Shown in pieces: positions 16,934 through 37,035 of a stretch of 47,561 nt of DNA (the first letter of the stretch is position 1; every line of letters begins with the position of its first letter). This stretch comes from Planktothrix sp. PCC 11201 (GTDB taxonomy: Bacteria; Cyanobacteriota; Cyanobacteriia; Cyanobacteriales; Microcoleaceae), in NCBI RefSeq assembly GCF_900009135.1, contig NZ_LT797688.1:373178-420738 (forward strand). Direction: 5' to 3'. The notes under the pieces are model-generated. The model was not told the DNA's origin, did no database searches, and was given only the letters and a program-made list of their open reading frames with translations. Position numbers and translations under genes: made by a program.

Positions 16934-17404
16934 ATGCGATTTAAGAAAAATTCTGATTTTTGGATAGTTGCTCTGGTGAGTTTAATTGCGGATCACCTGA
17001 CTAAATTGTGGGTGGTACAAAATTTTGAACTAGGAGAAACTTTACCTCTGTGGCGTGATGTGTTCCATCTAACCTATGTTACAAATACAGGAGCAGCCTT
17101 TAGTTTATTTAGTAATGGGGGTATCTTGTGGTTGCGTTGGCTATCATTATTGGTCAGTCTAGGATTAATGGCAATGGCTTGGTTTGGCCCTCGTCTCCAC
17201 CGTTGGGAACAAGTGGGATATGGTTTAATATTGGGGGGTGCATTAGGGAATGGAATTGATCGGTTTATTTCCGGTCACGTCGTTGATTTCCTAGATTTTC
17301 GACTAATTAATTTTCCCGTATTCAATTTGGCAGATATTTCGATTAACATTGGAATCTGGTGTTTAATTATTGCCATGTTTACCCAATTAAAACCTGAGTC
17401 CTGA
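16934..17404 (+). CDS. lspA: Lipoprotein signal peptidase (signal peptidase II)
   Basis: Membrane aspartic protease that removes signal peptides from lipoproteins such as SsuA and PstS. The 156 residues have four transmembrane segments and the catalytic pair in GALGNGIDRF (Asp 109) and VFNLADISINIG (Asp 134). NTGAAFSLFS is the other conserved stretch. It is co-oriented with bioB-bioY and with the downstream penicillin-binding protein gene. Confidence 0.96.
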   Translation: MRFKKNSDFWIVALVSLIADHLTKLWVVQNFELGETLPLWRDVFHLTYVTNTGAAFSLFSNGGILWLRWLSLLVSLGLMAMAWFGPRLHRWEQVGYGLILGGALGNGIDRFISGHVVDFLDFRLINFPVFNLADISINIGIWCLIIAMFTQLKPES

Positions 17405-17453
17405 AACGAAACGGTACAATAGATACAGACCCATGCAAGTCTGAGTGCTGAAA

Positions 17454-19724
17454 ATGTCCACCCCCTTGCCCCCTCAGAAACCCCAAACTCTCCTGAACAC
17501 AATCACACAGGTTGTCCAGACACTTCACGCTAAAGTTAATTTTTCGCGACTGATCCTCAAACCGAATGCTAAAGTCCCGGAACTGATAGTACATCAGGCT
17601 GATACTAACAAAGCAGAAGTTTATCCCCTATTAGGCGATCGCTATGTGGTGGGACGTTCTTCCCGAACCTGTGATATCGTAGTCCGAAACCCCCTGGTCA
17701 GCACAATTCATGTCAGTGTTGTCCGAGATCCCAAACGGACGGGGTTATTCTCGGGTCGTACCGGGTTTATGATTCAGGATGAAGACTCCACCAATGGCTT
17801 ATATTGGGGACGACGACGGGTTAAAGAATTGCCGTTGCACCATGGGGATAGTTTAACCTTGGGGCCACCGGAACTGGCTTCTGTGGTTCGGGTCGAATAT
17901 CGAAATCCGCCTCCTTGGTATCTTCAAACCCTCCGTTATGGATTTTATGGAATCTGTGGTTTAACGGCTGCGGTGGGGATAGTGGTGTTATTCCAGTGGC
18001 AGAAATTTGAAGTTGATCCCCTACCGAAAACCGTAACTGGGCCAGTAATTATTCATGCCGCCGATGGTCGCCCCCTCCGACAAGCAAATACCATCGCCCA
18101 TTTAGAAGCGGATAAGTTATCGGATTTTGGCCCCTATTTACCTAAAGCCGTTGTTGCTTCTGAGGATGCTCGGTTTTATTGGCATTTGGGCATTGATCCA
18201 TTAGGAACATTACGCGCATTATTAACCAATGTCCGGGATGGGGAAATTCGAGAAGGAGGCAGTACCCTTTCCCAACAGTTAGCCCGGAGTTTATATCGGG
18301 ATTATGTAGGTACGGAAGATTCTGCTGGACGGAAATTTAGGGAAGCGGTTGTGGCCCTGAAATTAGAAGCGGTTTATGGTAAAAATCAGATTCTAAAAAC
18401 CTATTTGAATCGGGTTTATTTAGGAATTAATTTATATGGTTTTGAGGATGCGGCTAAGTTCTATTTTAACAAATCTGCCAAGGATTTAAACCTGTCAGAA
18501 GCAGCTACTTTAGTAGGAATTTTACCCGCCCCCAATAGTTTTAATCCGATTCAAAATTATCAATTAGCAGTACAATACCGCGATCGCGTGATTAGTCGGA
18601 TGTTAGAACTGGGCATGGTTAGTGAAGATGAAGCCGATCGCGCTCGCCGTTCTCGGATTGAAATTAATCCTAAAGCTCAGGAGTTTTTAGAAAGTACCAT
18701 TGCTCCCTATTTTTACGATTATATTTTTGCTGAATTACAGGAATTATTAGGAGAACAATTGGCACGGGAAGGCAATTTTATTGTAGAAACAGCATTAAAT
18801 CCTTCGATGCAAACGATCGCCGAATCTTCTCTCAAAAGTTCAATTCAGACCACAGGAGCAACTAATGGGTTTTCCCAAGGAGGTCTGGTAACATTAGATT
18901 CTAATACTGGGGAAATTTTAGCAATGACGGGGGGTGCAGATTATAAAGAAAGTCAGTTTAACCGTGTTACCCAAGCTCAACGTCAGCCGGGATCAACGTT
19001 TAAATTGTTTACCTATTTAGCGGCGCTCGCTCAAGGTATTCCGCCGGGTCAAATCTATTCCTGTGAACCCTTAACTTGGAAAGGACAAAGTTATCAAGGG
19101 TGTGAACGCAGTGGGGGTGATATTGATATGTATAGAGGGTTAGCGTTATCAGAAAATGTGATCGCCCTGAGAATTGCTCAAGATGTTGGATTAGACCAAG
19201 TTATTGACATGGCAAAACGCTTAGGAATTAAGTCAAAACTTGATCCAGTTCCGGGCTTAGTAATCGGTCAAAGTGAGGTGAATCTGTTAGAAATTACTGG
19301 AGCTTATAACACCGTTGCCAATGATGGTTTTCGTAATTCTCCCCATGCAATTAAACGAATTTTAGATAGTAGTGATTGTACGGATTTTAATGATATTAAT
19401 ACCTGTCGGGTGATTTATGCTTATGATCGAGACAATCCCAAGATCCCATCGGTTTTATCTGCTTCTGTGGCGGAAACAATGACAACTTTATTGCAAGGAG
19501 CAATTCGTCGGGGAACGGCTAAAAGTGCCTATATCGGATTAGGAGAAGCGGGTAAAACCGGAACAACAAATGATAATGTTGATTTGTGGTTTATTGGTTA
19601 TCTTCCTGATTCTAAATTAACCACGGGAGTTTGGTTAGGGAATGATGATAATTCTCCTACCAATGGAAGTAGTGCAAATGCGGCTCAATTATGGCGAGAT
19701 TATATGAGTCAAATTGCTAGATAA
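17454..19724 (+). CDS. FHA-domain class A penicillin-binding protein (PBP1A-like)
   Basis: Bifunctional peptidoglycan synthase with an added N-terminal phosphothreonine-reading domain. Rough order: FHA domain (60-135; VVGRSSRTCDIVV and QDEDSTNGLYWGRRR), one transmembrane segment (168-186), glycosyltransferase GT51 (205-390; ASEDARFYWH with the catalytic Glu near 240, and GGSTLSQQLAR), and transpeptidase (460-750; active-site STFK near 517, SEN near 569, KTG near 704). All catalytic motifs are intact. The FHA domain lies on the cytoplasmic side, so regulation through a Ser/Thr kinase is likely; one such kinase gene is 2.3 kb downstream. ATG 17454 was chosen over a GTG at 17445; neither has a strong ribosome site. 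Confidence 0.93.
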   Translation: MSTPLPPQKPQTLLNTITQVVQTLHAKVNFSRLILKPNAKVPELIVHQADTNKAEVYPLLGDRYVVGRSSRTCDIVVRNPLVSTIHVSVVRDPKRTGLFSGRTGFMIQDEDSTNGLYWGRRRVKELPLHHGDSLTLGPPELASVVRVEYRNPPPWYLQTLRYGFYGICGLTAAVGIVVLFQWQKFEVDPLPKTVTGPVIIHAADGRPLRQANTIAHLEADKLSDFGPYLPKAVVASEDARFYWHLGIDPLGTLRALLTNVRDGEIREGGSTLSQQLARSLYRDYVGTEDSAGRKFREAVVALKLEAVYGKNQILKTYLNRVYLGINLYGFEDAAKFYFNKSAKDLNLSEAATLVGILPAPNSFNPIQNYQLAVQYRDRVISRMLELGMVSEDEADRARRSRIEINPKAQEFLESTIAPYFYDYIFAELQELLGEQLAREGNFIVETALNPSMQTIAESSLKSSIQTTGATNGFSQGGLVTLDSNTGEILAMTGGADYKESQFNRVTQAQRQPGSTFKLFTYLAALAQGIPPGQIYSCEPLTWKGQSYQGCERSGGDIDMYRGLALSENVIALRIAQDVGLDQVIDMAKRLGIKSKLDPVPGLVIGQSEVNLLEITGAYNTVANDGFRNSPHAIKRILDSSDCTDFNDINTCRVIYAYDRDNPKIPSVLSASVAETMTTLLQGAIRRGTAKSAYIGLGEAGKTGTTNDNVDLWFIGYLPDSKLTTGVWLGNDDNSPTNGSSANAAQLWRDYMSQIAR

Positions 19725-19746
19725 TTTTTTAGAAATTAAGAGAAAG

Positions 19747-19770
19747 AGAGACGCGCCGTGGCTCGTCTCT
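19747..19770. repeat. Dispersed 24-bp palindromic repeat, copy A
   Basis: agagacg and cgtctct enclose a gcc-gt-ggc core. Its reverse complement differs by one base from the element at 24039-24062. The pair forms inverted copies on either side of the Uma2, TnpB and kinase genes. Confidence 0.8.
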
Positions 19771-19778
19771 ACGGGGAA

Positions 19779-20396
19779 TTATGATTGAAAGATTTGTGTT
19801 GGGGTTAAATTTAATTCGGGGAATATAGCCGATTCCATTCTATCATTTTCTCTAAATAAATTTACCATATATTCCCCATCGATCATTTGATAAACTGAAA
19901 TCGTAGGTTGTTTGGGATTTCCAATATATCGCCGACCGCCTAACCCTAAATAATCAATAATCCAATATTCTTTAATTCCTAATTTTTCATATTCTGATAA
20001 TTTCATTAAATAATCATCTTGCCAATTGGTACTGACCACTTCTATAACTAAAGGTAAACTTTCACCTTGAGTAATAGTTGATCGCTTTTTCCACATTGGT
20101 TCATTTTCTAGCGCATTTTTATCAATAATAGTCAGATCGGGATTAAAACCAGATTGATCAGAATCAATGGCTTTGATAATACACTGTCGAGCGACAAAAT
20201 AGTTCAGTCCCAAGGATTCTATCTGAATGCCTAATTTAAGGGTAAGAAAACTAGCGACTTGTTCATGAGTTCCTGTAGGCTGCATTTCTTTAATAACTCC
20301 TTGATGTAATTCATACCGTCCGTAACCATCGGGAACCCAGTCCAAAAATTCCTCCAAGGTGATTAATTTAGCTTCCGATTCTAAGTAAATAGTCAT
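19779..20396 (-). CDS. Uma2 family endonuclease-like protein (DUF820)
   Basis: Member of the Uma2 family, a PD-(D/E)xK nuclease-fold family greatly expanded in cyanobacteria; cellular roles are mostly unknown. Visible hallmarks are TLEEFLDWVPDGYGRYELHQ, KEMQPTGTHEQV, SGFNPDLTIID, LPLVIEVVSTNWQDDY and EYEKLGIKEYWIIDY. Asp in NPDLT and Glu in VIEVVS are the probable catalytic residues. The open frame extends upstream to 20609, but that part is not family-like and runs into transposon-end sequence, so the ATG at 20396 is used. Confidence 0.85.
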   Translation of the reverse strand: MTIYLESEAKLITLEEFLDWVPDGYGRYELHQGVIKEMQPTGTHEQVASFLTLKLGIQIESLGLNYFVARQCIIKAIDSDQSGFNPDLTIIDKNALENEPMWKKRSTITQGESLPLVIEVVSTNWQDDYLMKLSEYEKLGIKEYWIIDYLGLGGRRYIGNPKQPTISVYQMIDGEYMVNLFRENDRMESAIFPELNLTPTQIFQS

Positions 20397-20678
20397 AAAT
20401 AAAATAACAATAAGAAGACAGTTTGTTGTTGCGCTTAAGCGCATCTTGTCGTTGCTGTTTATAGCTAAGAGTAGGAGCGCCACATCGCAACAACGAATTA
20501 TTTTTTTATAGTATAACAATTTATAGAACCCGGCTTTCTCAGAAAAACGGTTTCTTCCGGTTATCAGAAAAATGGGTTTAAAACCCCGTCGTTCTAGGCC
20601 TGCCCTCATGAAAATGGGGGACGGCTTTTTATTCTATTTTAGAGTATACTAAAGAACTGATTGTGAGCAACAAAAACA

Positions 20679-21905
20679 ATGAAAGCCAGGTATCGGTACA
20701 GAATCTACCCAACTAATCAACAAAAGAGGCTGATGTCTCAATTGTTTGGTTGTTGTCGTGTAGTGTTTAACGATGCTTTAGCTTACTGTCAAGAGCAACA
20801 CCGTGCGGGTAATAAAAAACCTTCTAGCAGTGAACTCTCTAAAAGACTTACAGAACTCAAAAAAACCGAGGAAAAAGAATGGTTAACAGAAGTTTCCTCG
20901 GTTCCCTTGCAACAGTCTTTGAGAGATTTAGAGCAGGCTTATTCTAACTTTTTCAAATCCTCCAAAGGACAAAGAAAAGGCAAAAAAGTTAAACCGCCTA
21001 GATTGAAGAAACGTAAATCCAAGCAATCAGCTAGATTTACTGATAACAGTTTTAAACTCTATCCTAATTCTGATTACATTTGCCTAGCTAAAATAGGTGA
21101 TATTCAAGTAATCTGGAGTAGGGAATTACCCGCAGTTCCTTCTAGTGTCACCTTAATTAAAGATAGTGCTGATAGATATTTTGTCAGCTTTGTAGTTGAG
21201 TTTAATCCTCAACAATTACCAAAAAATGGACAAAGTGTTGGCATTGACTTAGGAATCACTGATTTTGCTACACTAAGTAACGGTGAAAAAATCAAATCAC
21301 CTAAACCTTTAAAGAAACAGTTAAAGCGTTTAAGGAAATTACAACGGAATTTGTCAAGGAAACAGAAAGGGAGTAAAAGAAGGGAAGTTGCTAGAAAAAA
21401 ACTAGCTAAACTTCATGCTAAAATTTCTGATACCCGAAACGATTTTTTACACAAACTGTCAACTCAGATTATTCGTGAAAATCAAACAATAGTCTTAGAA
21501 GATTTGAATGTGTCAGGGATGATGAAAAACCGCAAACTATCCCGTGCAATTAGCGATTTGGGCTGGCGTAGTTTTAGAACCATGTTAGAGGCTAAGTCAG
21601 TCATGTACGGGCGGGATTTTCAAGTAATTGATAGATGGATTCCCACTTCTCAAACTTGCTCTTGTTGCGGTTTTCACAGTGGCAAAAAAGAGTTAAATAT
21701 TAGAGAGTGGATTTGTCTTAATTGTGGAACTTCTCATGATCGAGATGTTAACGCTGCAATTAATATCAAGGTCGCCGGAGGGCATTCGGAGACTTTAAAC
21801 GGACGTGGAGAGAAGGTCAGTCTTTCTGTAAAGAAAGCACATCTCGGCGAAGCGTCAACCCATCCAGCATTTGAGCAGCTATCAATTTTTGATCTGCTTA
21901 AATAG
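20679..21905 (+). CDS. tnpB: RNA-guided nuclease TnpB (IS200/IS605 family)
   Basis: The 408 residues show the N-terminal YRYRIYPTNQQKRLM, then a split RuvC domain: VGIDLGITDFATLS (Asp 190), VLEDLNVSGM (Glu 274) and SHDRDVNAAINI (Asp near 354-356). A four-cysteine zinc finger (Cys 327, 330, 346, 349) lies between the last two motifs. All catalytic residues are present, so the protein could be an active omega-RNA-guided DNA nuclease, as shown for other TnpB proteins. Length is normal. No frameshift or stop interrupts it, which suggests recent arrival or selection. Confidence 0.93.
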   Translation: MKARYRYRIYPTNQQKRLMSQLFGCCRVVFNDALAYCQEQHRAGNKKPSSSELSKRLTELKKTEEKEWLTEVSSVPLQQSLRDLEQAYSNFFKSSKGQRKGKKVKPPRLKKRKSKQSARFTDNSFKLYPNSDYICLAKIGDIQVIWSRELPAVPSSVTLIKDSADRYFVSFVVEFNPQQLPKNGQSVGIDLGITDFATLSNGEKIKSPKPLKKQLKRLRKLQRNLSRKQKGSKRREVARKKLAKLHAKISDTRNDFLHKLSTQIIRENQTIVLEDLNVSGMMKNRKLSRAISDLGWRSFRTMLEAKSVMYGRDFQVIDRWIPTSQTCSCCGFHSGKKELNIREWICLNCGTSHDRDVNAAINIKVAGGHSETLNGRGEKVSLSVKKAHLGEASTHPAFEQLSIFDLLK

Positions 21906-21943
21906 ATAGAATCCCCGTCCGTTCACGGCGAGGCGGATGTCAA
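21800..21943 (+). ncRNA. Probable omega-RNA (reRNA) of TnpB
   Basis: In this family the guide RNA spans the 3' end of tnpB and the right end of the element, and its guide is the flanking host DNA. Here the region ends in a hairpin at 21915-21928 and ggatgtcaa. The guide would then read from about 21944 onward into the upstream region of the kinase gene. The 5' limit is a guess. Confidence 0.45.
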
Positions 21944-21986
21944 CTTAGGGTAAAATAAACTTAGGCTCGTTTGAGTTAGATCATCT

Positions 21987-24011
21987 ATGAGTTATTGCCT
22001 AAATCCCCAGTGTCCTCAACCCCAGAACACCCCAGAGGCTAAATTCTGTTTAACCTGTGGGGCAAAATTGTTATTAAGAGAACGGTATCGCGCCGTTAAA
22101 GTGATTGGTCATGGGGGTTTTGGTAAGACATTTTTAGCCGTAGATGAAGATAAACCCTCCCGTCCCGCTTGCGTAATTAAACAATTTCGCCCCCAAATGC
22201 AGGGCAATTCTCAAAAAGCCATTGAGTTATTTCATCGAGAAGCAGAACGTTTAGATGAGTTAGGAAAACACCCTCAAATTCCTGAATTATTAGCCCATTT
22301 TGAACAAGAGAATCATCAATATTTAGTCCAAGAATTTATTAATGGGCCGAATTTGGAAGCGGAAATTTTGGATCACGGGATTTTTAATGAAGCCCAAATT
22401 CGTCAAGTCTTAGATGACTTATTACCCGTTTTACAATTTATTCATCATCATCGGGTAATTCACCGAGATATTAAACCCGCGAATATTATTCTGAGAGAGG
22501 GATCTTTATCGGCACAATTGCCCTTAGTTCGTCCTGAATTTTTACAACAATTGCGGGGAGAATCTTCGCCTCAAAATGCCCCTGGGGGTTCTCAACCTCA
22601 AGGTCAGTTAGTATTAGTAGATTTTGGAGCGGCAAAGGTCGTTACTGATACTGAAGTTCCAATTATGGGAACAGTAATTGGTAGTCCCGAATATGTGGCT
22701 CCTGAACAAACCAGAGGACAGGCAATTTATAGCAGTGATATTTATAGTTTAGGGGTAACTTGTATTTATTTAATGACGCAAATTTCACCTTTTGATTTGT
22801 ATGATATTCATGAGGATCGGTGGATTTGGCGAGATTATTTAAAACAAAATTCTGTGAGTTCGGAATTAGGAAAAATATTAGATAAAATGTTAGCCGTATT
22901 ACCCAGTCAACGTTATGATTCTGCTTTAAAAGTCCTCAAAGATCTACATCCGAGTGGCATACCTGTCGCGATCACCCGCCATTTACAAACCCCATCCCCC
23001 CCAACTCCTGCACCACCAACCGTTAGAACTCCCGCCCCATCTCCCTCCCAGACCTTACCCCCCCGCACCCTCCAACAACCCCCACCCCCTCAACAGCAGC
23101 GTGTTCAACCCTTGCACCCGCCCTCTTGGAAGTGTGTGCACACCCTTAGTGGTCATCGCAACGCTATTACGGGAGTGGCTTTCAGTCCCGATGGCCAGAC
23201 CTTGGCGAGTGGGAGTCAGGATCAGACGATTGAAATTTGGCGGCTGGACTCGGGGAAACGGTGGTATACCTTGGTGGGTCATAGTAATTGGATCACGACC
23301 ATTGCTTTTAGTCCTGATAGCAAGACTTTGGCGAGTGGGAGTCGGGATCAAACCATTGAAATTTGGGATATGACTAAGGGTAAAAGGTGGTATACCCTCA
23401 CGGGTCATCAAGACGGGGTGGAGGCGGTGGCGTTTAGTCCCAATGGTCAATTCTTAGCCAGTGGAAGTCGAGATAAAAGTATTGAAATTTGGAATATGAA
23501 TAAGGGAAAACGGGGGTTTACCTTAACAGGTCATCAGGATCGAGTTTATAGTGTGGCGTTTAGTTTGGATAGTCAAAAATTGGCAAGTGGGAGTCGAGAT
23601 CAAACGATAAAAATTTGGGATTTGAACACAGCAAAGGAAGTCCAAACTTTAACAGGTCATGGGGACTGGGTGCGAAGTATGGCGTTTAGTTTAAACGGTC
23701 AATTATTGGCTTCGGCGTCTAAAAATGGCATGATTAGAATATGGCACAATCAACAGGAAAAATGGGTATTATTAAGAACATTAAGAGCCGATGTTCAAGA
23801 GATATTTAATATTGTTTTTAGCCCAGATAATCAGTTTTTAGTGAGTGGGGGAGGACAGGGAATAATTGATATTTGGGATGTACAAAAAGGGATATTATTA
23901 GAAACCATTAAAGCCCATGATAGTGATGTTTTTACGGTGGCATTTAGTGGGGATGGTCAATGGTTAGCAACGGGAAGTTATGACTGGACGGTGAAGTTGT
24001 GGAAACAATAA
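21987..24011 (+). CDS. Zinc-ribbon Ser/Thr protein kinase with WD40 propeller
   Basis: Eukaryotic-type kinase of a cyanobacterial kind. Order over 674 residues: four-cysteine zinc ribbon (Cys 4, 9, 21, 24); kinase domain (34-315) with glycine loop GHGGFGKTF, Lys 65, HRDIKPANI (159-167), DFGAAK (212-217) and SPEYVAPEQ; proline-rich linker (335-380); and a C-terminal WD40 propeller of about seven blades (385-674) with repeated LTGH, FSPD, LASGS and IEIW motifs. An insertion of about 35 residues separates the catalytic loop from DFG. All catalytic residues are present. No membrane segment is seen, so it acts in the cytoplasm. Substrates are unknown; FHA proteins such as the nearby PBP are natural candidates by inference. 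Confidence 0.93.
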   Translation: MSYCLNPQCPQPQNTPEAKFCLTCGAKLLLRERYRAVKVIGHGGFGKTFLAVDEDKPSRPACVIKQFRPQMQGNSQKAIELFHREAERLDELGKHPQIPELLAHFEQENHQYLVQEFINGPNLEAEILDHGIFNEAQIRQVLDDLLPVLQFIHHHRVIHRDIKPANIILREGSLSAQLPLVRPEFLQQLRGESSPQNAPGGSQPQGQLVLVDFGAAKVVTDTEVPIMGTVIGSPEYVAPEQTRGQAIYSSDIYSLGVTCIYLMTQISPFDLYDIHEDRWIWRDYLKQNSVSSELGKILDKMLAVLPSQRYDSALKVLKDLHPSGIPVAITRHLQTPSPPTPAPPTVRTPAPSPSQTLPPRTLQQPPPPQQQRVQPLHPPSWKCVHTLSGHRNAITGVAFSPDGQTLASGSQDQTIEIWRLDSGKRWYTLVGHSNWITTIAFSPDSKTLASGSRDQTIEIWDMTKGKRWYTLTGHQDGVEAVAFSPNGQFLASGSRDKSIEIWNMNKGKRGFTLTGHQDRVYSVAFSLDSQKLASGSRDQTIKIWDLNTAKEVQTLTGHGDWVRSMAFSLNGQLLASASKNGMIRIWHNQQEKWVLLRTLRADVQEIFNIVFSPDNQFLVSGGGQGIIDIWDVQKGILLETIKAHDSDVFTVAFSGDGQWLATGSYDWTVKLWKQ

Positions 24012-24036
24012 CCGCCCTGAACGCTCATTTCGGGCT

Positions 24037-24063
24037 GTAGAGACGTGCCACGGCGCGTCTCTC
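24037..24063. repeat. Dispersed 24-bp palindromic repeat, copy B
   Basis: The core at 24039-24062 has agagacg and cgtctct around a gcc-ac-ggc centre. It is the inverted partner of the copy at 19747-19770, with one mismatch, and shares its outer core with the palindrome at 6748. Confidence 0.8.
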
Positions 24064-24097
24064 GATGTTATCTAAAGATAACCTGTTTTAAATAGGA

Positions 24098-24194
24098 GCG
24101 ATCGCAACCCCAATCAAATTAACACCCACCATCTTACTAAAATTGATATTCATATAAGAATGTGCGATCGCAAATACAATAATATTAAAACAAT
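24098..24194. repeat. 97-bp direct repeat, copy 1
   Basis: Ungapped match to 24926-25022 with seven differences by eye (about 93% identity). It starts with the HIP1 octamer gcgatcgc and has another near its 3' side. It lies just downstream of the DUF5615 gene. The remaining bases between the kinase stop and this repeat hold only palindrome copy B. Confidence 0.9.
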
Positions 24195-24204
24195 AATTTT
24201 ATTG

Positions 24205-24552
24205 TTAAAAAGGTAAGTATTGAACTTGGTTCACTAAATCTTCTGGTTCACTTGCTTTGGCAATTATTTCTAAGTCCCGCACACATTCTCCAACGGTGAC
24301 AGACTGTTGATGTGCGTAAATAACCCCACTAAACTTTACCCCCTCTTGCTGGCGACGGTTAGCTATTACTAAAAAATCATCATCTTGGGTAAAGATAACA
24401 CGATCGAGTTCTGTGGCGCGATCAAGTAAAATTGGATCAGGCGTGCCAGTTCGTCCATCTTCTTGTACTGTGAGAACGTCTATACCGCGCAATTTTAAAC
24501 CATTTGTAATTACTCGGCGAATGTGTTCATCCATGTAAAGGGCTAGGGTCAT
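24205..24552 (-). CDS. DUF5615 PIN-like toxin of a type II-like pair
   Basis: Small protein of 115 residues with a PIN-like nuclease pattern: LYMDEHIRRVITNGLKLRGI at the N-terminus, then a central LDRVIFTQDDDFL acidic motif. DUF5615 proteins are regularly paired with DUF433 proteins in cyanobacteria and are thought to be toxins. The start overlaps the stop of the DUF433 gene by four bases, so the two are translationally coupled. RNase activity is inferred from the fold family. Confidence 0.85.
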   Translation of the reverse strand: MTLALYMDEHIRRVITNGLKLRGIDVLTVQEDGRTGTPDPILLDRATELDRVIFTQDDDFLVIANRRQQEGVKFSGVIYAHQQSVTVGECVRDLEIIAKASEPEDLVNQVQYLPF

Positions 24553-24866
24553 TTAATGAGTCCCTGGGTGCGAAGTTTTTTAACTAAAGCAGATTCACCT
24601 GCTTGTTGACGTAACGTTTCAACATTCTCAAATCGTCGCTGTATATCGGCATCTAGTTCTTCTTTATTATCCCAGTAGTAAGCTAAGGTAGAATAAATTT
24701 GACTCATGCTTAAATAGGGATGTTGAAATTTAATTTCTTCGGGACTCCAACCAAAAGCAAGATGACCGGAAACTAATTCAATTACTTTCATGGTTGTTCC
24801 GCCAATGTAGGGAACGTTGTTTTCATTCAGTTCTATATACTTGTGTTGTGTCGTAGTCAAGTTCAT
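24549..24866 (-). CDS. DUF433 antitoxin-like protein
   Basis: 105 residues counted from ATG 24866, with YIGGTTMKVIELVSGHLAFG, WSPEEIKFQHPYLSMSQIYS and TLAYYWDNKEELD. This is the DUF433 helix-turn-helix-like fold typical of antitoxins paired with PIN-like toxins. The open frame runs back to 24941, but ATG 24866 fits the family's usual start and a TATAAT -10 candidate on this strand lies at 24892-24897. It precedes and overlaps the DUF5615 gene. Confidence 0.83.
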   Translation of the reverse strand: MNLTTTQHKYIELNENNVPYIGGTTMKVIELVSGHLAFGWSPEEIKFQHPYLSMSQIYSTLAYYWDNKEELDADIQRRFENVETLRQQAGESALVKKLRTQGLIK

Positions 24867-24925
24867 AGAGTTTGCCTCGTTACTGAATTTAATTATAGTA
24901 TATTTTTGGCAATTTCTTCTGAAGT

Positions 24926-25022
24926 GCGATCGCCACCCCAATCAAATTAACACGCACCATCTTAATAAAATTGATATTAATACAAGAATAGGCGATCGCA
25001 AATACAATAATATTAAAACAAT
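24926..25022. repeat. 97-bp direct repeat, copy 2
   Basis: Second copy of the 24098-24194 repeat, same orientation, upstream of the DUF433 gene and about 55 bases beyond the end of the sigma-fusion gene. With copy 1 it brackets the toxin-antitoxin pair exactly. Confidence 0.9.
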
Positions 25023-25076
25023 TAATTGGTAGATGTTGGGGTGTAGCAAGTGAGGATGATCGCACTGCTTTAGATT

Positions 25077-28000
25077 CTAAAATAACAATAGATATTCTTT
25101 CAAGATACTATTGCGGTTAGGATGACGTAACTTTCTGAGAGCTTTCGCCTCTATTTGACGAATGCGTTCACGGGTGAGATTAAAAATCTGACCAATTTCT
25201 TCTAATGTCTTCATCCGACCATCATCTAACCCATAACGCAATCTTAGTACATCTCTTTCCCTGGGACTGAGACTATCTAATACATATTCTAAGTCTTCTC
25301 GTAATAGATTCATAGACACTTGATCTTCAGGAGTTTCGCCATCGGATTCAATAAAATCTCCTAAACGAGAATCTTCCTCTTTCCCAATCGGTGTTTCTAA
25401 AGAAATCGGAAGTTGAGCCGATTTAACAATAAACCGTAACTTCTCGATGGTCATTTCCATGCGAGTTGCTATTTCTACTTCGGTGGGTTTGCAACCCATT
25501 TCTTGAGACAGTAACTTGGTAGTTTTTTTAATCCGAGAAATGCTTTCATACAGGTGAACTGGAAGCCGAATAGTCCGAGATTGATCGGCGATCGCTCTAG
25601 TAATTGCCTGACGAATCCACCAGGTCGCATAAGTAGAAAATTTGTAACCTTTTTCGTGATCAAATTTCTCGGCGGCGCGAATTAATCCTAAACTACCTTC
25701 TTGAATCAAATCTTGGAAGGAAAGACCCCGATTCATGTATTTTTTGGCAATCGAAACCACCAGTCGTAAATTAGACTGTACCAGTTTATCTTTTGCCCGG
25801 CGGCCAATATAAAGACGGCGGCGGAATTCTGGCAACCTCATCTCAACGGCGCTCGCCCATTCCTGCTCATTGGGTTCGCGATCGTAATGTTCGATCAGTA
25901 TTTCCCGAATTCGCTCTAGTTCGAGTAAGTCGGCAATTTTACGAGCGAGTTCAATTTCTTCATCCGCGCGTAATAATCGAATCCGACCAATTTCTTGGAG
26001 ATAGAGACGAATCGAATCTTCTGTAAAGTGTTTTTTCTTCGTCTGAGTTCGACGCCGGGATCTAACCCATTTACCAGATGGCATCTGGTAATAACCATAC
26101 AAATGACCATACAATAATCTAAATTCATCCAAATCTCGGAAGATATAAGATCGAATATGCCAACGAGTGAATACTCCTATTGCCATTTTAGAATAGCTTT
26201 CAGGGTTTTCCTTGGGTTCGGGAGTTGGAGTCGGAGTTGGAGTCGGAGTTGGAGTCGGAGTTGGAGTCGGAGTTGGGGTTGGACTTGGGGTTGGACATGG
26301 TGTTGGACTCGGTGTTGGACGTGGTGTTGGACTCGGTGTTGGACTCGGTGTTGGACATGGTGCTGGACGTGGAGTTGGTTCGGGGTTAGGATTATTTTTG
26401 GAATGATCTAATTTTTCTATTGTTTCACCGACCGTTTTAATCACTTCATCTATGAAAGAAGGTTTAACCGGATTTCTATTGCTAAAATCAGATGAAACAT
26501 AAACATCTTTTATCTTGGGAACAGGAATAACTTTACACTCAGCTAAATCGCTAATATTCTCTGGGATAGCTTTAGCATAAACTTCATAACTTCCATCAGC
26601 ATCCTCTAATGGAATAAAATAACCATTCTGATTAATTGTTCCCCCTGTAGCCGTCCAAGTGACTTGTCCGATGGGAATAGGTTGATTATATTGATCAAAA
26701 CCTTGAACATTAAATTGTTGGGATTTACCACAATATAGACTTGTTTCTGAAGGGTTAATTTTTAACAATGTTAGTTTAGGTTTTTCAATAATTGTTATTA
26801 AAACTTGACAACTAACTGAGTTAACCTGTGCTTGTATTTTAAAGTTAGAACCTGATATATTTCCGGCTTGGAATAGTCCGTCTTCGACCTCTCCTCCTGT
26901 AGCAGTCCAAGTTATATTTTCAATTTTAATCGGTTTATTATATTGATCAAAACCTTGAATAGTAAACTCTTGATAGTCACCACAATATAAAGTTTTTCCT
27001 GGGGAATTAATTTTTAACGATGTTAGTTTAGGAGACTCACCTTCTAAAACCTCTAAAATTTCTCCTTTTTGCAAATCCCAAAGTTTAATCCAATCCCGAC
27101 TCCCACTAACAAATAATTTACTATTAGAACTAACAGCAATAGAACTAATAAATCCAGTATGACCTGTGATTCTACGAGATGGATTAGGGTATTGATTAAG
27201 GTTTTGAATATAAATACTGCCATTATTGGTTCCTATGACTTGAATATTACCATTAGAAGTAATATCAAAATCACTGATTGTTTGAAATTTGCCTGTAATA
27301 GTCTTAACACATTTTAAACTATTGACAAGTAATTGAAATGGGGGTTCATTATTACTCTTTCCAAAAAAGAAACTCAAAACATCAGTTACAAAAGGAATAT
27401 TAAAATTTTCATTTTTACCTTGAGTTTTGGGATCTTTTTGCCAAATTTTAACAGTTCCATCTCGACTACCTGTAACTAAAGATTGATCATCAGAACTAAT
27501 GGCGACATTTTGAATCCAATCTGAATGTTCTTCAATAGTTCTTAATAATTGTTTTTTTGTCAAATCCCATAATTTTATCGTTTTATCTGTACTTCCACTG
27601 ACTAAAAATTTACTGTCTGAACTAATTGCTAAACAAGAAATCCATCCGGTATGATCATTAAAAGTATGGACAAGTTGTTTCTTTTCTAAATTCCAGACTT
27701 TAATGGTTTTATCTGCACTTCCACTAATTAAGGTTTGATTATCTGGGGTAATTTTAACGACATTAACCCAACTTGTATGACCTGTAAAAGTATGCAAATT
27801 AATTGTAGTTTTTAAATTCCATAACTTAACAGTTTTGTCAATACTACTACTGACTAAATATTGACCATTGGAACTAATTGCAACGGATAAAACCCAATGG
27901 GAATGAGCATCAAGGGTATCAACTAATTGTCCTGTCTCTAAATTCCAAATTCTGATGATTTTCCAACCGCCACCGACGATAATTTTATGTTCTGAACTAA

Positions 28001-28271
28001 TAGCTACACAAGAAATTGTATCTTGAGGTATAATATTAGGCGATCGCAAATTAACATTTTCAGTTAAATAAGGATTATCACCATACAGCACCCAATACGC
28101 CGATTGTTTAACCTGTTCTGAAGGGTTGATTAATGCCTGTTGCGCTAGTAAATCTAAACCTTGATCAAATTTCAGACAGTCTGAAAGGGCTGTAAGTCGT
28201 TGTTGCAGGTCTGGACTGGTGAATTTACCCCGAAGATTCTCAATAGCTGGCCGTTCAGAGGGTTCGGTCAT
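25077..28271 (-). CDS. WD40 / Ig-like / Pro-Thr / SigA-like sigma-70 fusion protein
   Basis: One uninterrupted frame of 1064 residues. N-terminal helical, HEAT-like segment (15-64); seven WD40 blades (about 85-410), five then a spacer then two; two Ig-like (Big_2-type) repeats (about 415-497 and 499-580), each with LYCG, GFDQYN and TWTATGG; Pro-Thr tract (627-695); short junction (696-740); and a full primary-type sigma factor (745-1064). Sigma regions: 1.2 ([18 protein letters not shown]), 2.3-2.4 ([28 protein letters not shown]), 3 ([13 protein letters not shown]), 4.2 ([20 protein letters not shown]). These regions appear intact and very close to cyanobacterial SigA, so normal promoter recognition is likely. 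The acidic region 1.1 is absent. No signal or membrane segment. An internal start at Met 696 or Met 730 could give a free sigma. Function of the propeller is unknown. Confidence 0.9.
26214..26393 (-). repeat. Tandem repeat coding the Pro-Thr spacer
   Basis: About 180 bases of 6- and 12-base repeats (ggagtt, ggagtc, and variants with ggac) encode alternating Pro with Thr, Ser, Arg or Cys in the sigma-fusion protein. Units are multiples of three, so slippage would change spacer length without breaking the frame. The part nearest the sigma domain is the most regular and so probably the youngest. Confidence 0.9.
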
Positions 28272-28358
28272 GGTCTTAACTATTACAGGTTATCTATCCA
28301 TTTTAAACTCATAACCCCATTAAATAACAAAGGTTTAATTAAGAAAAATGATCACACT

Positions 28359-28386
28359 TTATCAAGGGCTTTGCTTCTGCTATAGT
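28359..28386 (+). promoter_or_regulatory. Candidate promoter of the 302-residue gene
   Basis: TTATCA (28359-28364), a 16-base spacer and TATAGT (28381-28386) precede the ATG at 28418. A GTG at 28385 would lie within the -10, so the ATG is the better start. On the other strand TTGATA with TAATTA at 18 bases could serve the sigma-fusion gene from the same 146-base gap. Confidence 0.45.
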
Positions 28387-28417
28387 GAGAATAATTAACT
28401 CGGCAAACCGGATCAAT

Positions 28418-29326
28418 ATGGAAATTAACCCTAATCCCCTCGAATTTCTATCTGCCAAGGTTCAAGAAACGGTTAACGATACCCAAAATTTGGCTAACCA
28501 AATAGCTGCCAATGTTCAGGACAGTGCCAAGGCCGTAACCGCATGGGTAGAATCCGCCCCCGGTTCCATGGTTGGTGTTGGGGTCGTTGTGACTCAAGAA
28601 GCCTTTAAAGTCGCCCATAATATCCGGTTTGAAAACCTACCTACAGGGTTACAATTAAAATTCGCTCGGGCGGGTGTGCGCCAGGGAATGCGAAATGTTC
28701 AAGAAGCCACAAAAGTCTTTGAATCCATACCCGCCCAAATTCGCGCCCAAGGGCCAGAAGCCATTCGTAACTTCTGTCAGGATAAGGATTGGAGTCACAT
28801 CAAAGCCCACGTCAATGGCGGCGGAAGCGAAGCCCATAACGGGATTTTTGAATATTTTAAGGTGAATCGTAAGCGCGGTGGGGTGGACATGACCCGCAAA
28901 GAATTAGCCGCGGCGAAGAAGGTTTTAGCGGATGCCGCCTTTAAAACAGCAGTTGTCGAAATCGTTGGGGCAACTCTTAAAGGTGCGATTGTTGCAGGAG
29001 TTATTGAGTTAGTATTTTCTATTTTAGAAAACTCTTTATTGTACGTTGAAGGCAAAATTACCAAGTCGGAGTTAGTGAAAAAAGTCGCCACCGCCACGGC
29101 AAAAGCCGCTATTGCGGGGGGTGTAATTACGGCCATCCTGTTAACACTTTGTATGATATTTCCCTCCATTGCCACGCTTTTAGGTGCTGTCGCCATACCC
29201 TTGGGGGTTGCCGGGATTGGTTTTATGGGAATTCGCGCCTGGGAAATCTTTTGTCATGCCGATCACTTATTTGGTATTACTGAACAAACACAACAACTTA
29301 TGGGACTCACTGAAGGGGCAATTTAA
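28418..29326 (+). CDS. Protein of unknown function with HNH-like motif and membrane segments
   Basis: 302 residues, not recognised as a named family. The N-terminal 100 residues are helical and polar. A central motif FCQDKDWSHIKAHVNGGGSE then AHNGIFE resembles the His-Gly-Gly-Asn pattern of HNH-type folds, but no activity is shown. The C-terminal third has two or three hydrophobic Gly/Ala-rich stretches (IVGATLKGAIVAGVIELVF; GGVITAILLTLCMIFPS; LGAVAIPLGVAGIGFMG) that probably span the membrane. It is divergent from the sigma-fusion gene, and its stop codon overlaps the stop of the convergent methyltransferase gene by four bases. A link to the sigma fusion is suggested only by position. Confidence 0.7.
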   Translation: MEINPNPLEFLSAKVQETVNDTQNLANQIAANVQDSAKAVTAWVESAPGSMVGVGVVVTQEAFKVAHNIRFENLPTGLQLKFARAGVRQGMRNVQEATKVFESIPAQIRAQGPEAIRNFCQDKDWSHIKAHVNGGGSEAHNGIFEYFKVNRKRGGVDMTRKELAAAKKVLADAAFKTAVVEIVGATLKGAIVAGVIELVFSILENSLLYVEGKITKSELVKKVATATAKAAIAGGVITAILLTLCMIFPSIATLLGAVAIPLGVAGIGFMGIRAWEIFCHADHLFGITEQTQQLMGLTEGAI

Positions 29327-30516
29327 TTGAAGTTAAACCCTTTTTGAACAGTATAAGCCGGGGCTTCTATAATCATGATGTGATCGGGAATATCTATCAC
29401 GTCAAGATCAAAAAGATCATCTGATGTTTTGACTAAAATGGATTTTAAAGCCCCTTTAATTTGAGATGCTTTATGCAATAAAGCGAGTGCTTTGTGTAAA
29501 CTTTCTCCCTGACGCTGTACCCGAACAGGAACGGGCTTTCCTTGATAATTCTGTTTTAAAATAGCATCAATTCCTTGATTTCTTTGAACCGGAATAATAT
29601 CTAAACTAGCAATAATATTAAGTGCATCTTCATTGGCATTAAGATAGGCTTTGCGACCTTTCTGAAGGAGCAAAGATTCAGATTTCATTGGTGTTTTTAA
29701 TCTATCTTTAGAAATTTGAACAGCATCGGGAGAAATATCAATTCCCCAGGCTGAACGATTTAATAATTTTGCCGCAATAATTGTTGTCCCACTTCCACAA
29801 AAAGGGTCTAATATAATATCCCCAGGATTAGAGGCTAACTCAATAATTTGTTCTAGGAGCAAAATCGGTTTTTGAGTTGGATAACCCACACGCTCTTTAG
29901 CTTTAGGGTTTAAATAGGGAATCTCCCAAACATCACTTAATGGGACTCCTTTTTTGGGATCAGCCGGAATAATTTCCCCCTGCTCATCCCTCGCATAAAT
30001 GGCTTTACCATGCTGATCTCGGGTACGTTTCTGTAAGATTTGATCAATATTGGTAGACTCTGAATAATCACAATAAATACGATTAAAAATAAATTGATTG
30101 GTCTTAGAATAAAAGAATATTGTTTGATGGGCGGGTAATAATCCTTTTCTGGAATTTGACCATCGTTTGTAACTCCAAATAATTTCTGATCTAAAATTTT
30201 CTTGTCCAAAAATATGATCTAAAATTGCTCTAATGATATAATTAGCATGGGTATCACAATGCACAAAAATTGACCCATCTTCCCTTAAAACCTTATGTAG
30301 AACAACTAACCTCTCATGAATAAATTTTGCATAGTCTTGATGACTTTCCCATAAATCATCATAGCTAAATTCAGATTGTCTATCTCTCGTTTTTAAAGAA
30401 TGGTGTTTTTGGGTAAAAAAAGGAGGATCTAAATAAATCAGATTAACGAAATTTTGCTGCATTCCTTGGACTATCTCAAGACAGTCTCCTTGAATAATAT
30501 TGTAAGTATTGTTCAT
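29323..30516 (-). CDS. DNA methyltransferase (N6-adenine or N4-cytosine) of an ApaLI-like system
   Basis: The 397 residues hold motif IV as DPPF (30-33) and motif I as DPFCGSGTTIIAA (237-249), with GYPTQKP (211-217) between. This order marks the N6_N4 methyltransferase family. About 85 residues after the core (310-397) form an extra C-terminal region of unknown role. The protein looks intact. It is 24 bases downstream of the broken endonuclease gene on the same strand, so it probably protects the same site. If the partner is truly ApaLI-like the site would be GTGCAC, which is inferred from the family. Protein sequence alone does not decide the methylated base. Confidence 0.88.
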   Translation of the reverse strand: MNNTYNIIQGDCLEIVQGMQQNFVNLIYLDPPFFTQKHHSLKTRDRQSEFSYDDLWESHQDYAKFIHERLVVLHKVLREDGSIFVHCDTHANYIIRAILDHIFGQENFRSEIIWSYKRWSNSRKGLLPAHQTIFFYSKTNQFIFNRIYCDYSESTNIDQILQKRTRDQHGKAIYARDEQGEIIPADPKKGVPLSDVWEIPYLNPKAKERVGYPTQKPILLLEQIIELASNPGDIILDPFCGSGTTIIAAKLLNRSAWGIDISPDAVQISKDRLKTPMKSESLLLQKGRKAYLNANEDALNIIASLDIIPVQRNQGIDAILKQNYQGKPVPVRVQRQGESLHKALALLHKASQIKGALKSILVKTSDDLFDLDVIDIPDHIMIIEAPAYTVQKGFNFN

Positions 30517-30540
30517 AATTTTTCATGGGTTAATCAATTA

Positions 30541-31311
30541 TCATTCATCTGAAGCCGTATTTTGATCCGCAATTCTTTGTAAGATTGCTTTTAAATCTAC
30601 ACCTGTTCGTTTCGTTACATAGTTCCAGGCACTCTCTCCATAGTAATATTCACCGCCAATGCCCTTATAAAGTGTCTCTAAAGTTTGTTGAATTCTGATA
30701 GCTTGTTGCCTATTGGGGTAATAAAACATAATACGAATGGGTTTATAACCTGCGGTTGATATATAGCAATCCTAAATAGGTTGTAACATTTTATTGTAGG
30801 GGTTTGGTCTCCAAACCCAGGCGAAAAGAGGGTTTGGAGACCAAACCCCTACGGAATTTTGTCACAAATTATTTAGGATTGCTATAGCTTTGATTCTAGT
30901 ATGTTCTTTTGTGATATGATCTCCATCTGTTGTTGCATCTCTCCACTTAATTTCAATGGCATTATTTCCTTCTAAACAATCAATTTCAAATGTTTTCGGT
31001 CTTGAACCCAGAGTATTAGTAATTTTGACTGCTTTTGAATCAGGGTATTTTTCCAGGAAAGATAATTGAGTAGCCTTCTCTAAAAATGAACCTGCATAAT
31101 TATATAAAAAACGACCTTTATTTTGATAAGTATCTATTAATCTTCCTTCTTCCTCAGTGATATGCAAAACTCTATAGATTAAAAAATGAGAAGTATCATC
31201 AGCTTCCATTTCTTTTAAACTAAAGTTAATTTGTTTCAGTAGAGCTTCGGAAGATTTTTGTGCTAAATTGTGGATTTTTTCTTCTAAACTTGAAGGCGTG
31301 AGAGATGCCAT
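30541..31311 (-). pseudogene. ApaLI-like restriction endonuclease, split by a MITE
   Basis: The N-terminal part (31311 to about 30885) encodes residues 1-143 and holds the PD-(D/E)xK pattern as EID (Asp 111) and IEIKWRD (Glu 120, Lys 122) followed by ATTDGDHITKEHTRIKAI. Translation then runs into the MITE and stops after six further residues, AILNNL, at 30862. The C-terminal part begins STAGYKPIRIMFYYPNRQQA and continues to 30541 (GGEYYYGESAWNYV, GVDLKAILQ). Removing the 121-bp element and one TA copy joins KAI to STAG in frame and gives 215 residues, close to what is expected for this family. As it stands no full enzyme can be made. The C-terminal fragment also has an open frame from an internal ATG (62 residues) but is not a separate gene. 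Confidence 0.9.
30762..30886. mobile_element. MITE with TA target duplication, inside the endonuclease gene
   Basis: The 121-bp element (30764-30884) begins tagcaatcctaaat and ends atttaggattgcta, perfect 14-base inverted ends flanked by TA on both sides. Its centre is a second inverted repeat (gtaggggtttggtct with agaccaaacccctac). TA duplication and small size fit an IS630/Tc1-mariner-type MITE. No protein is encoded. It disrupts the restriction gene. Confidence 0.92.
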
Positions 31312-31347
31312 AAATTAAATACTATTTTTATAGAAAAGTATAAGTTA

Positions 31348-31472
31348 TATAGCAATTCTAAATGATTTGTGATCAAAACCCGTAGGGGTTGGGTCTCCCA
31401 ACCCTCTTTGCGCCTGGGTTGGGAGACCCAACCCCTACAATAAAATGTTACAACTTATTTAGAATTACTATA
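31348..31472. mobile_element. Second MITE copy, inverted
   Basis: The same 121-bp element (31350-31470) in opposite orientation, flanked by TA, with ends tagcaattctaaat and atttagaattacta and the central gtaggggttgggtct repeat. The centre is conserved in layout but differs at many bases, so the two copies are not a recent duplication. It lies 37 bases upstream of the endonuclease start, where it may affect its promoter. Confidence 0.9.
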
Positions 31473-31568
31473 TACAATTAACATTACAGTAAAGCACTCT
31501 AATTATAGCTTTAAATTGTTCATCATGTCAATATTATATTTAACACTATATTCTCTATTTTTGATTTC

Positions 31569-36420: not shown

Positions 36421-37035
36421 TTAACAATTCCCTAACTCTGTTCCTTCGAGACAAGCACCTTCTAAAACCACACCTAAAAATAAGGTTTGTTCCAGAATAG
36501 CGCATAGTAAATTAGCCCGTTCTAAATTCGTTCCCCGCAACACCGCACCGGATAAATTAGCTTCTTCTAAATCAGCTTGAGATAAATCAGCACCGGATAA
36601 ATTAGTATTTCTTAAATCCGCTTGATATAAAATTCCTTGGGATAAATTCACGCCGCGTAAATCAGCACCCCTTAAATCAATCCCACTTAAATCCAAATTT
36701 CCACAGGTGGCTCCAGTTAAAAAAGCTCCAGCAAAACTCGCTTCTTTTACCTCCGCATCGAATAGAATTGCCCCCCTTAAATCAGCATTTCTCAAGTCAG
36801 CCCCTTGCAAATTTGCTCCCGATAAATCAGCCCCTCTTAAATTAGCTCGGAGTTGCGCTCCTTGTAAATTAGCCCCGGATAAATTAGCTCCCGACAAATT
36901 AGAACCCGATAAATTCACCTGTGCCAAATTAGCCCCGGATAGATCAATACCGGATAAATTCATATTAGTCAAATCTTTAATAGCTCCTTGTTTGAGGGCA
37001 TTAAAATCAACCGATAGAGTGCGAGTCATGGTCAT
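36421..37035 (-). CDS. Pentapeptide-repeat protein
   Basis: About 204 residues, nearly all A(D/N)LSG-type pentapeptides from residue 20 on, which fold as a right-handed quadrilateral beta-helix. A run [20 protein letters not shown] is typical. An N-terminal 20 residues ([17 protein letters not shown]) precede it. ATG 37035 is used; a TTG at 37056 is less likely and an ATG at 37029 is possible. Function is unknown for most such cyanobacterial proteins. It lies 34 bases downstream of the DICT gene and may share its transcript. Confidence 0.88.

Follow-up and report, generated by a model that had tools for sequence, protein, structure and literature searches.

Sigma factors joined to WD40 repeats have been described before. 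Some ECF57 sigma factors bear C-terminal WD40-like repeats, with control via protein interaction suggested for them (PMC8999054, available part), and WD40 makes up 8.39% of the accessory domains on cyanobacterial sigma-70 proteins across 361 genomes (PMC11119718, available part). ECF-like domains occur in conflict-system proteins (PMC8195603, available part), and mzaA is mentioned as a sigma factor (PMC9523054, available part). Among defence-associated models, MzaA of the MZA anti-phage system contains a sigma domain and PglW, the BREX kinase, an alpha-CTD-like stretch. Here we analyze a sigma fusion found in the window, by which we mean the whole stretch of 47,561 nucleotides from Planktothrix sp. 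PCC 11201; cyanobacteria of this genus form blooms. An earlier note on this DNA had held WD40 to be unusual on sigma-70 factors, which does not stand in so far as the cases cited above are on record. Comparison of sequences from ten Planktothrix genomes indicates that the locus is one gene with exchanged C-terminal modules, in which a HEAT-WD40-Ig scaffold is constant and the polymerase part is exchangeable. WD40 on sigma being already recorded, the new part is that sigma and alpha serve as exchangeable ends of one gene. Among the matches listed for the open-licence full-text literature, none reported such an exchange at one gene's end. RpoA exchange is not mentioned in the available part of PMC8999054; the WD40-sigma set of PMC11119718 may include the Planktothrix family itself, and the available main text of that article leaves Planktothrix unnamed and mentions no alpha-subunit exchange.

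The fusion gene (P0001) occupies 25077 to 28271 on the minus strand, from ATG to stop, and encodes 1064 residues. The earlier note had described a single frame of this length, strand not given, in which seven WD40 blades, two Ig-like repeats and a Pro-Thr tether precede a sigma factor with regions 1.2 to 4.2, and each of these elements was recovered. An additional one, absent from that description, is an N-terminal four-helix bundle (residues 7 to 62, 28086 to 28253) in the predicted model, which we call HEAT-like from its helix pattern; no HEAT match was seen for it among the best 25 of 58 families in a Pfam scan. The propeller follows at residues 85 to 420 approximately (27012 to 28019), its WD40 repeats matching PF00400 with an E value of 1.4e-56 among the same 25 families. 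Two predicted beta-sandwich domains at about 425 to 582 correspond to the Ig-like repeats, the first at about 425 to 495 (26787 to 26999; the label is taken from the strand pattern of the model) and the second at about 500 to 582 (26526 to 26774); both recur as repeats in relatives. Next come the Pro-Thr/Ser tether (26214 to 26378), encoded by a 6-base repeat array at 26221 to 26378, an aromatic-rich linker of about 45 residues joining tether to sigma (26061 to 26204) and the SigA module (25077 to 26060), all on the minus strand. The predicted structure had a mean pLDDT of 58.5 and was mostly good up to residue 582, except at 66 to 80 and 282 to 317. Residues 584 to 777 were predicted with low confidence, as was much of the sigma part, from which nothing is therefore concluded. 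In Foldseek the per-target best matches were designed seven-bladed WD40 propellers (7bie, target TM 0.93, rmsd 1.9, 329 columns), and since eight-bladed propellers fitted worse (0.73, rmsd 8.5), a predicted propeller of seven blades is supported. The fusion thus has the N-terminal helical segment, propeller and Ig repeats of what we name here the HEAT-WD40-Ig scaffold family.

The C-terminal module closely resembles SigA/RpoD. Pfam recognized sigma-70 regions 2, 3 and 4 at very small E values (best 25 of 58 families), fusion residues 736 to 1061 cover positions 71 to 396 of the 397 in the cyanobacterial RpoD model NF005643, and TIGR02997 is covered over its full length, so that regions 1.2, 2, 3 and 4 are intact and in order. 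Unlike SigA, the fusion has the linker, the tether and a scaffold of roughly 690 residues in place of the acidic N-terminus; only this segment, where region 1.1 would lie, is absent, in agreement with the earlier claim that a large module has replaced region 1.1. The protein shares with ECF57 the combination of sigma and WD40 within one polypeptide. However, ECF57 proteins, as described in the available part of PMC8999054, are of the ECF type (sigma2 and sigma4) with C-terminal WD40, whereas the fusion has SigA-type regions and N-terminal WD40, and assignment to ECF57 was rejected. The canonical SigA of the same genome is a separate 404-residue frame on contig C29, 95% identical to the fused sigma. 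Four further sigma matches at 43–51% identity, one at 30% and a single RpoA match were also found in this genome.

We consider misassembly of the sigma fusion unlikely, because two further Planktothrix genomes have the Ig-tether-linker-sigma junction, each on a single contig, and because the fused sigma, at 95% identity, is not an exact copy of the SigA of its own genome. With three assemblies in agreement misassembly was rejected. The earlier note had said that halves always encoded separately in relatives would speak against the fusion; this is not the case, as the two genomes with the junction show. The three sigma alleles are nearly identical from the end of the last Ig domain through tether and linker: upstream of the linker they differ mostly by 0–1 bases per 60, and over 171 bp of linker DNA by 0, 3 and 3. 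Their sigma cores differ at 51, 64 and 74 of 969 bases. No good match to the 45-residue linker was found in the 10 genus genomes outside these alleles, and its alignment with SigA N-terminal DNA was unconvincing.

We searched the window's genome and 58 relatives for related fusions, reading nine frames and scanning two. The named genomes with relatives (Planktothrix rubescens PCC7821, P. paucivesiculata PCC 9631 and two Oscillatoriales MAGs) are all among the genus genomes compared, designated G000 for the window's genome and G001 to G009 for nine other Planktothrix genomes. Out of these 10 genomes, 3 carry a sigma module (G000, G005 and G007), 4 an alpha module and 1 an alpha CTD, and in 2 the gene was not found. 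Alleles of RpoA type have three CTDs each in G001 and G009 and two in G003, and the allele of G006 has a single alpha CTD and nothing else of polymerase. In G008 the WD40-Ig frame stops in the tether. A second contig has at its end an RpoA half with one full CTD, which begins in the same Pro-Thr tether and has the usual neighbor genes. We infer that the two belong to one gene; the assembly is likely at fault here, since the Pro-Thr repeat is where one contig breaks off and where, on the other, the scaffold frame continues into the kinase region. The N-terminal piece of the fusion had no match in G002 or G004, whose completeness is 99% and 73%, respectively. The reading frame is open through the polymerase module in G000, G001, G003, G005, G006 and G009. 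A DDE transposase gene (L039:8000-9082) interrupts the WD40 half of the G007 sigma allele, and the alpha N-terminal domain (NTD) of G009 has other sequence in place of its first strand. G003 also has a second scaffold gene (L045:5432-9433, 1333 residues), which has a Tyr-rich tail, lacks a polymerase part and may represent an older form of the C-terminal end.

Homologous DNA delimits the exchange on both sides. When the window from 17000 to 31500 was compared with the loci of relatives by blastn, the scaffold side was homologous (for example 27139 to 28398, 93.5% identical to G001), and so was the 3' side, from 24544 to 25034 in G001 and G009 (92.4%), 24545 to 25025 in G006, 24198 to 25039 in G003 and 24083 to 25028 in G008. 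The homologous 3' flank ends roughly 40 bases beyond the stop codon of sigma, and only the stretch from about 25040 to 26221 (minus strand) differs, carrying RpoA (NTD and CTDs) or one alpha CTD instead of sigma in relatives. This 3' flank holds, whole or in part in several alleles, a pair of minus-strand genes identified by Pfam and blastn, DUF5615 (PIN-like, 24205 to 24552) and DUF433 (24549 to 24941), which together span 24205 to 24941 and which we take to be toxin-antitoxin-like. Beyond them lies a frequent neighbor, a kinase-WD40 gene (21987 to 24011, plus strand; blastn and profile search), which adjoins the fusion locus in G000, G001, G005, G006, G007, G008 and G009. It was rejected as an obligate partner: in G002, G003 and G004 it is present with no fusion beside it, the two genes of G003 being on different contigs.

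The earlier reading of a sigma factor governed by the propeller was supported in three respects: the two halves are fused, a tether joins them and the N-terminus of sigma is replaced. It is too narrow as a sigma-only account, because relatives carry RpoA or an alpha CTD in the same gene instead of sigma. By sequence comparison and trees the fused modules derive from SigA and RpoA of the genus. Sigma binds the core enzyme and the promoter; alpha builds the core, and its CTD touches DNA, activators and sigma region 4. The property common to the three modules is the transcription-initiation surface. A scaffold gene with swappable polymerase parts points to a product that either handles the transcription machinery or mimics it, and the best reading is a scaffold whose polymerase-derived module docks onto RNA polymerase or promoter partners, to which we assign a probability of roughly 0.42. 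The HEAT-like bundle, propeller and Ig array would form a cytoplasmic scaffold, which the C-terminal module on its flexible Pro-Thr tether would dock onto RNA polymerase or, alternatively, onto the regulators and promoter DNA normally contacted by sigma region 4 and the alpha CTD. The propeller may then recruit a partner to the transcription machinery or keep some polymerase near that partner. We infer polymerase binding by the module, protein binding by the propeller, the cytoplasmic location and the direction of regulation. That all modules at this gene are RNA polymerase parts, swapped between homologous flanks, favors docking, as do the complete set of regions 1.2 to 4.2 and the frames that stay open through the module in six genomes. 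Points against it are that the gene is accessory, not being found in G002 and G004, that it is interrupted in G007 and that a strand of the alpha NTD is replaced in G009.

The constraint on the fused sigma bears both on docking and on the very unlikely case of a working second primary sigma factor with activity set by the propeller. Sigma activity can persist when the acidic N-terminus (region 1.1) is lost, and its absence is compatible with a second sigma factor, as are complete regions 1.2 to 4.2 and the 95–96% identity of the fused sigmas to SigA. However, a normal SigA is present elsewhere in the genome, the alpha alleles would be left unexplained, and the sigma allele, rather than occurring in every genome like a primary sigma, is confined to 3 of the 10. 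Over the core compared (residues 738 to 1060; 323 codons, 969 bases), pairwise omega was 0.06–0.11 in the three fused-fused pairs versus 0.01–0.02 in three within-genus canonical pairs, and these values are flattered by what appears to be recombination of the fused sigma with canonical SigA. Indeed, the fused sigma has tracts in common with different canonical alleles: a runs test for mosaicism fell below 0.05 (uncorrected) in 33 of 54 overlapping triplets, at the lowest with 0 of 5000 shuffles, versus 1 of 6 hand-chosen canonical control triplets (0.041; another gave 0.056). The fused sigma therefore appears, from these patterns, to recombine with SigA, and mosaicism is probably the reason why the fused copies are unsupported in the sigma-core tree (UFBoot 24, 36 and 50 at the surrounding nodes).

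We also counted private changes, defined as bases absent from the nine canonical SigA copies of the genus, with changes common to fused copies counted in each. The three fused sigmas had 23 nonsynonymous and 28 synonymous private changes (omega about 0.24), distributed as 12:7 in G000, 3:11 in G005 and 8:10 in G007. Four of the nine canonical copies, each set against the other eight, had 1:53 (omega 0.006). The difference is pronounced (Fisher p 4e-8) and places the fused sigma short of housekeeping-level constraint. Nevertheless, nonsynonymous changes in the pooled fused copies lie below the neutral expectation (binomial p 7e-7), in favor of docking, and the G005 copy alone rejects neutrality (p 1.6e-5). 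In the window copy, with an omega of 0.51, neutrality was not rejected (p 0.12), which counts against docking. The freer evolution of the fused sigma and its apparent recombination with SigA speak against its being an ordinary additional primary sigma. Different polymerase parts on one scaffold would be accounted for by a role in docking or baiting, but not by an extra sigma factor.

Fused alpha copies form their own supported clade (UFBoot 98), with pairwise omega of 0.27–0.50. In the NTD their pN/pS was 0.38, compared with 0.13 in canonical RpoA, and in the first CTD it was 0.48, compared with 0 (6 fused and 36 canonical pairs). As the first fused CTD varies at the amino-acid level and the canonical one shows no amino-acid change in 36 pairs, normal alpha function is not maintained, a further point against docking. 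By these rates the modules persist as open and partly constrained domains rather than as housekeeping subunits. We regard as unlikely a near-neutral capture, whereby recombination in the Pro-Thr repeat twice joined available coding DNA and the modules have no polymerase-related job. The private changes of the window copy fit it, the alpha values differ little from the 0.33 measured over the first 290 scaffold residues in seven alleles, and the interruption in G007 and the two genomes in which the gene was not found agree with it. Yet both captured genes being polymerase parts would be an odd coincidence, one allele retains the alpha CTD alone, CTDs occur as tandem pairs or triplets in three alpha alleles, and the pooled sigma changes and the G005 copy reject neutrality. 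Nine other frames with Pro-Thr runs in the window's genome, from 5 of 10 stretches examined (two of these overlapping), are by eye of RTX or Ig/cadherin type and not housekeeping enzymes, so polymerase parts are not merely what such repeats pick up.

Among the host polymerase parts targeted by proteins of T4-type phages are sigma region 4 and the alpha CTD. The module might accordingly be an integrated decoy or guard, imitating polymerase parts attacked by phage proteins that the scaffold senses or soaks up, with module swaps tracking which part local phages hit; we consider this somewhat unlikely. It would fit modules that copy host housekeeping targets, are exchanged at one gene and evolve under weaker constraint than the originals. 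Tracts shared by the fused sigma with SigA lineages would keep bait and target alike; for fused alpha, a separate clade, no recombination with RpoA was seen. WD40 relatives on cyanobacterial plasmids include some with the annotation NB-ARC, NACHT or caspase. In the fusion itself no effector domain was recognized. Polymerase-like domains occur in the defence models MzaA and PglW, although alignment to these is limited to the polymerase-like domain. Only residues 824 to 1059 align to MzaA, a domain-only match on which MZA membership was rejected, and Pfam named none of mzaBCDE among eight window neighbors. The kinase matches defence models only as a generic kinase and also occurs away from the fusion. 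A restriction-modification-like pair lies within 3 kb in the window, yet its restriction enzyme-like and methylase genes are the only defence-like ones among the eight Pfam-scanned neighbors and are absent beside the G006 and G007 alleles. It is an even bet that the locus serves as decoy or dock, SigA and RpoA being interchangeable on one scaffold and swapped between species like immune-receptor baits or polymorphic-toxin tips. If the modules bind polymerase, as in the preferred docking reading, the gene would naturally tether transcription to a hub of protein interactions; if they act as baits, it would be the bacterial equivalent of an integrated decoy, directed against phage take-over of host transcription. 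On either reading the alleles offer a clean comparison of the same scaffold with different polymerase parts.

Beyond the genus, we surveyed 140 genomes of the class, in which Planktothrix was represented by the window's genome alone. SigA matches (E limit 1e-125) were found in 138, with listed frames of 270–514 residues except for the window's fusion, and alpha NTD matches (E limit 1e-20) in 137, with frames of 274–393 residues. No long sigma or alpha fusion beyond the window's own was found at these limits. Of 108 genomes searched with the alpha CTD piece, 106 had a match, with frames above 1000 residues only in G001, G003, G006 and G009. A search with the N-terminal piece detected the scaffold in 20 genomes among 291 of the order. 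Sixteen scaffold relatives from this taxonomic order, outside the fusion gene (L045, L078-L081 and L129-L139, of which L132 reaches a contig end and may be cut), have the N-terminal helical segment, propeller and Ig array. Unlike the fusion, they end by eye in a second propeller or other tails, and at a blastp E value of 0.01 none had a sigma or alpha match, which five fused frames in the same set did. Giant sigma fusions of another architecture are encoded in two genomes of the same family (L046:7838-13486, plus strand, 1882 residues; L047:9048-16367, plus strand, 2439 residues). They combine sigma regions 1.2, 2, 3 and 4 near the N-terminus with an AAA-type domain, weak in L047, and in PADLOC only their sigma part matches, to MzaA.

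Some other features of the window were also noted. Pfam identified an N6/N4 DNA methylase (29323 to 30516) near an ApaLI-like restriction endonuclease (30862 to 31311) of 149 residues, the profile having 189. A TnpB-like gene, an IS605-type OrfB with a Cas12f-like domain (20679 to 21905), lies between a penicillin-binding protein gene and the kinase-WD40 gene. Finally, tandem repeats of 15, 30 and 45 bases are found at 36545 to 36960, presumably as in pentapeptide-repeat proteins.
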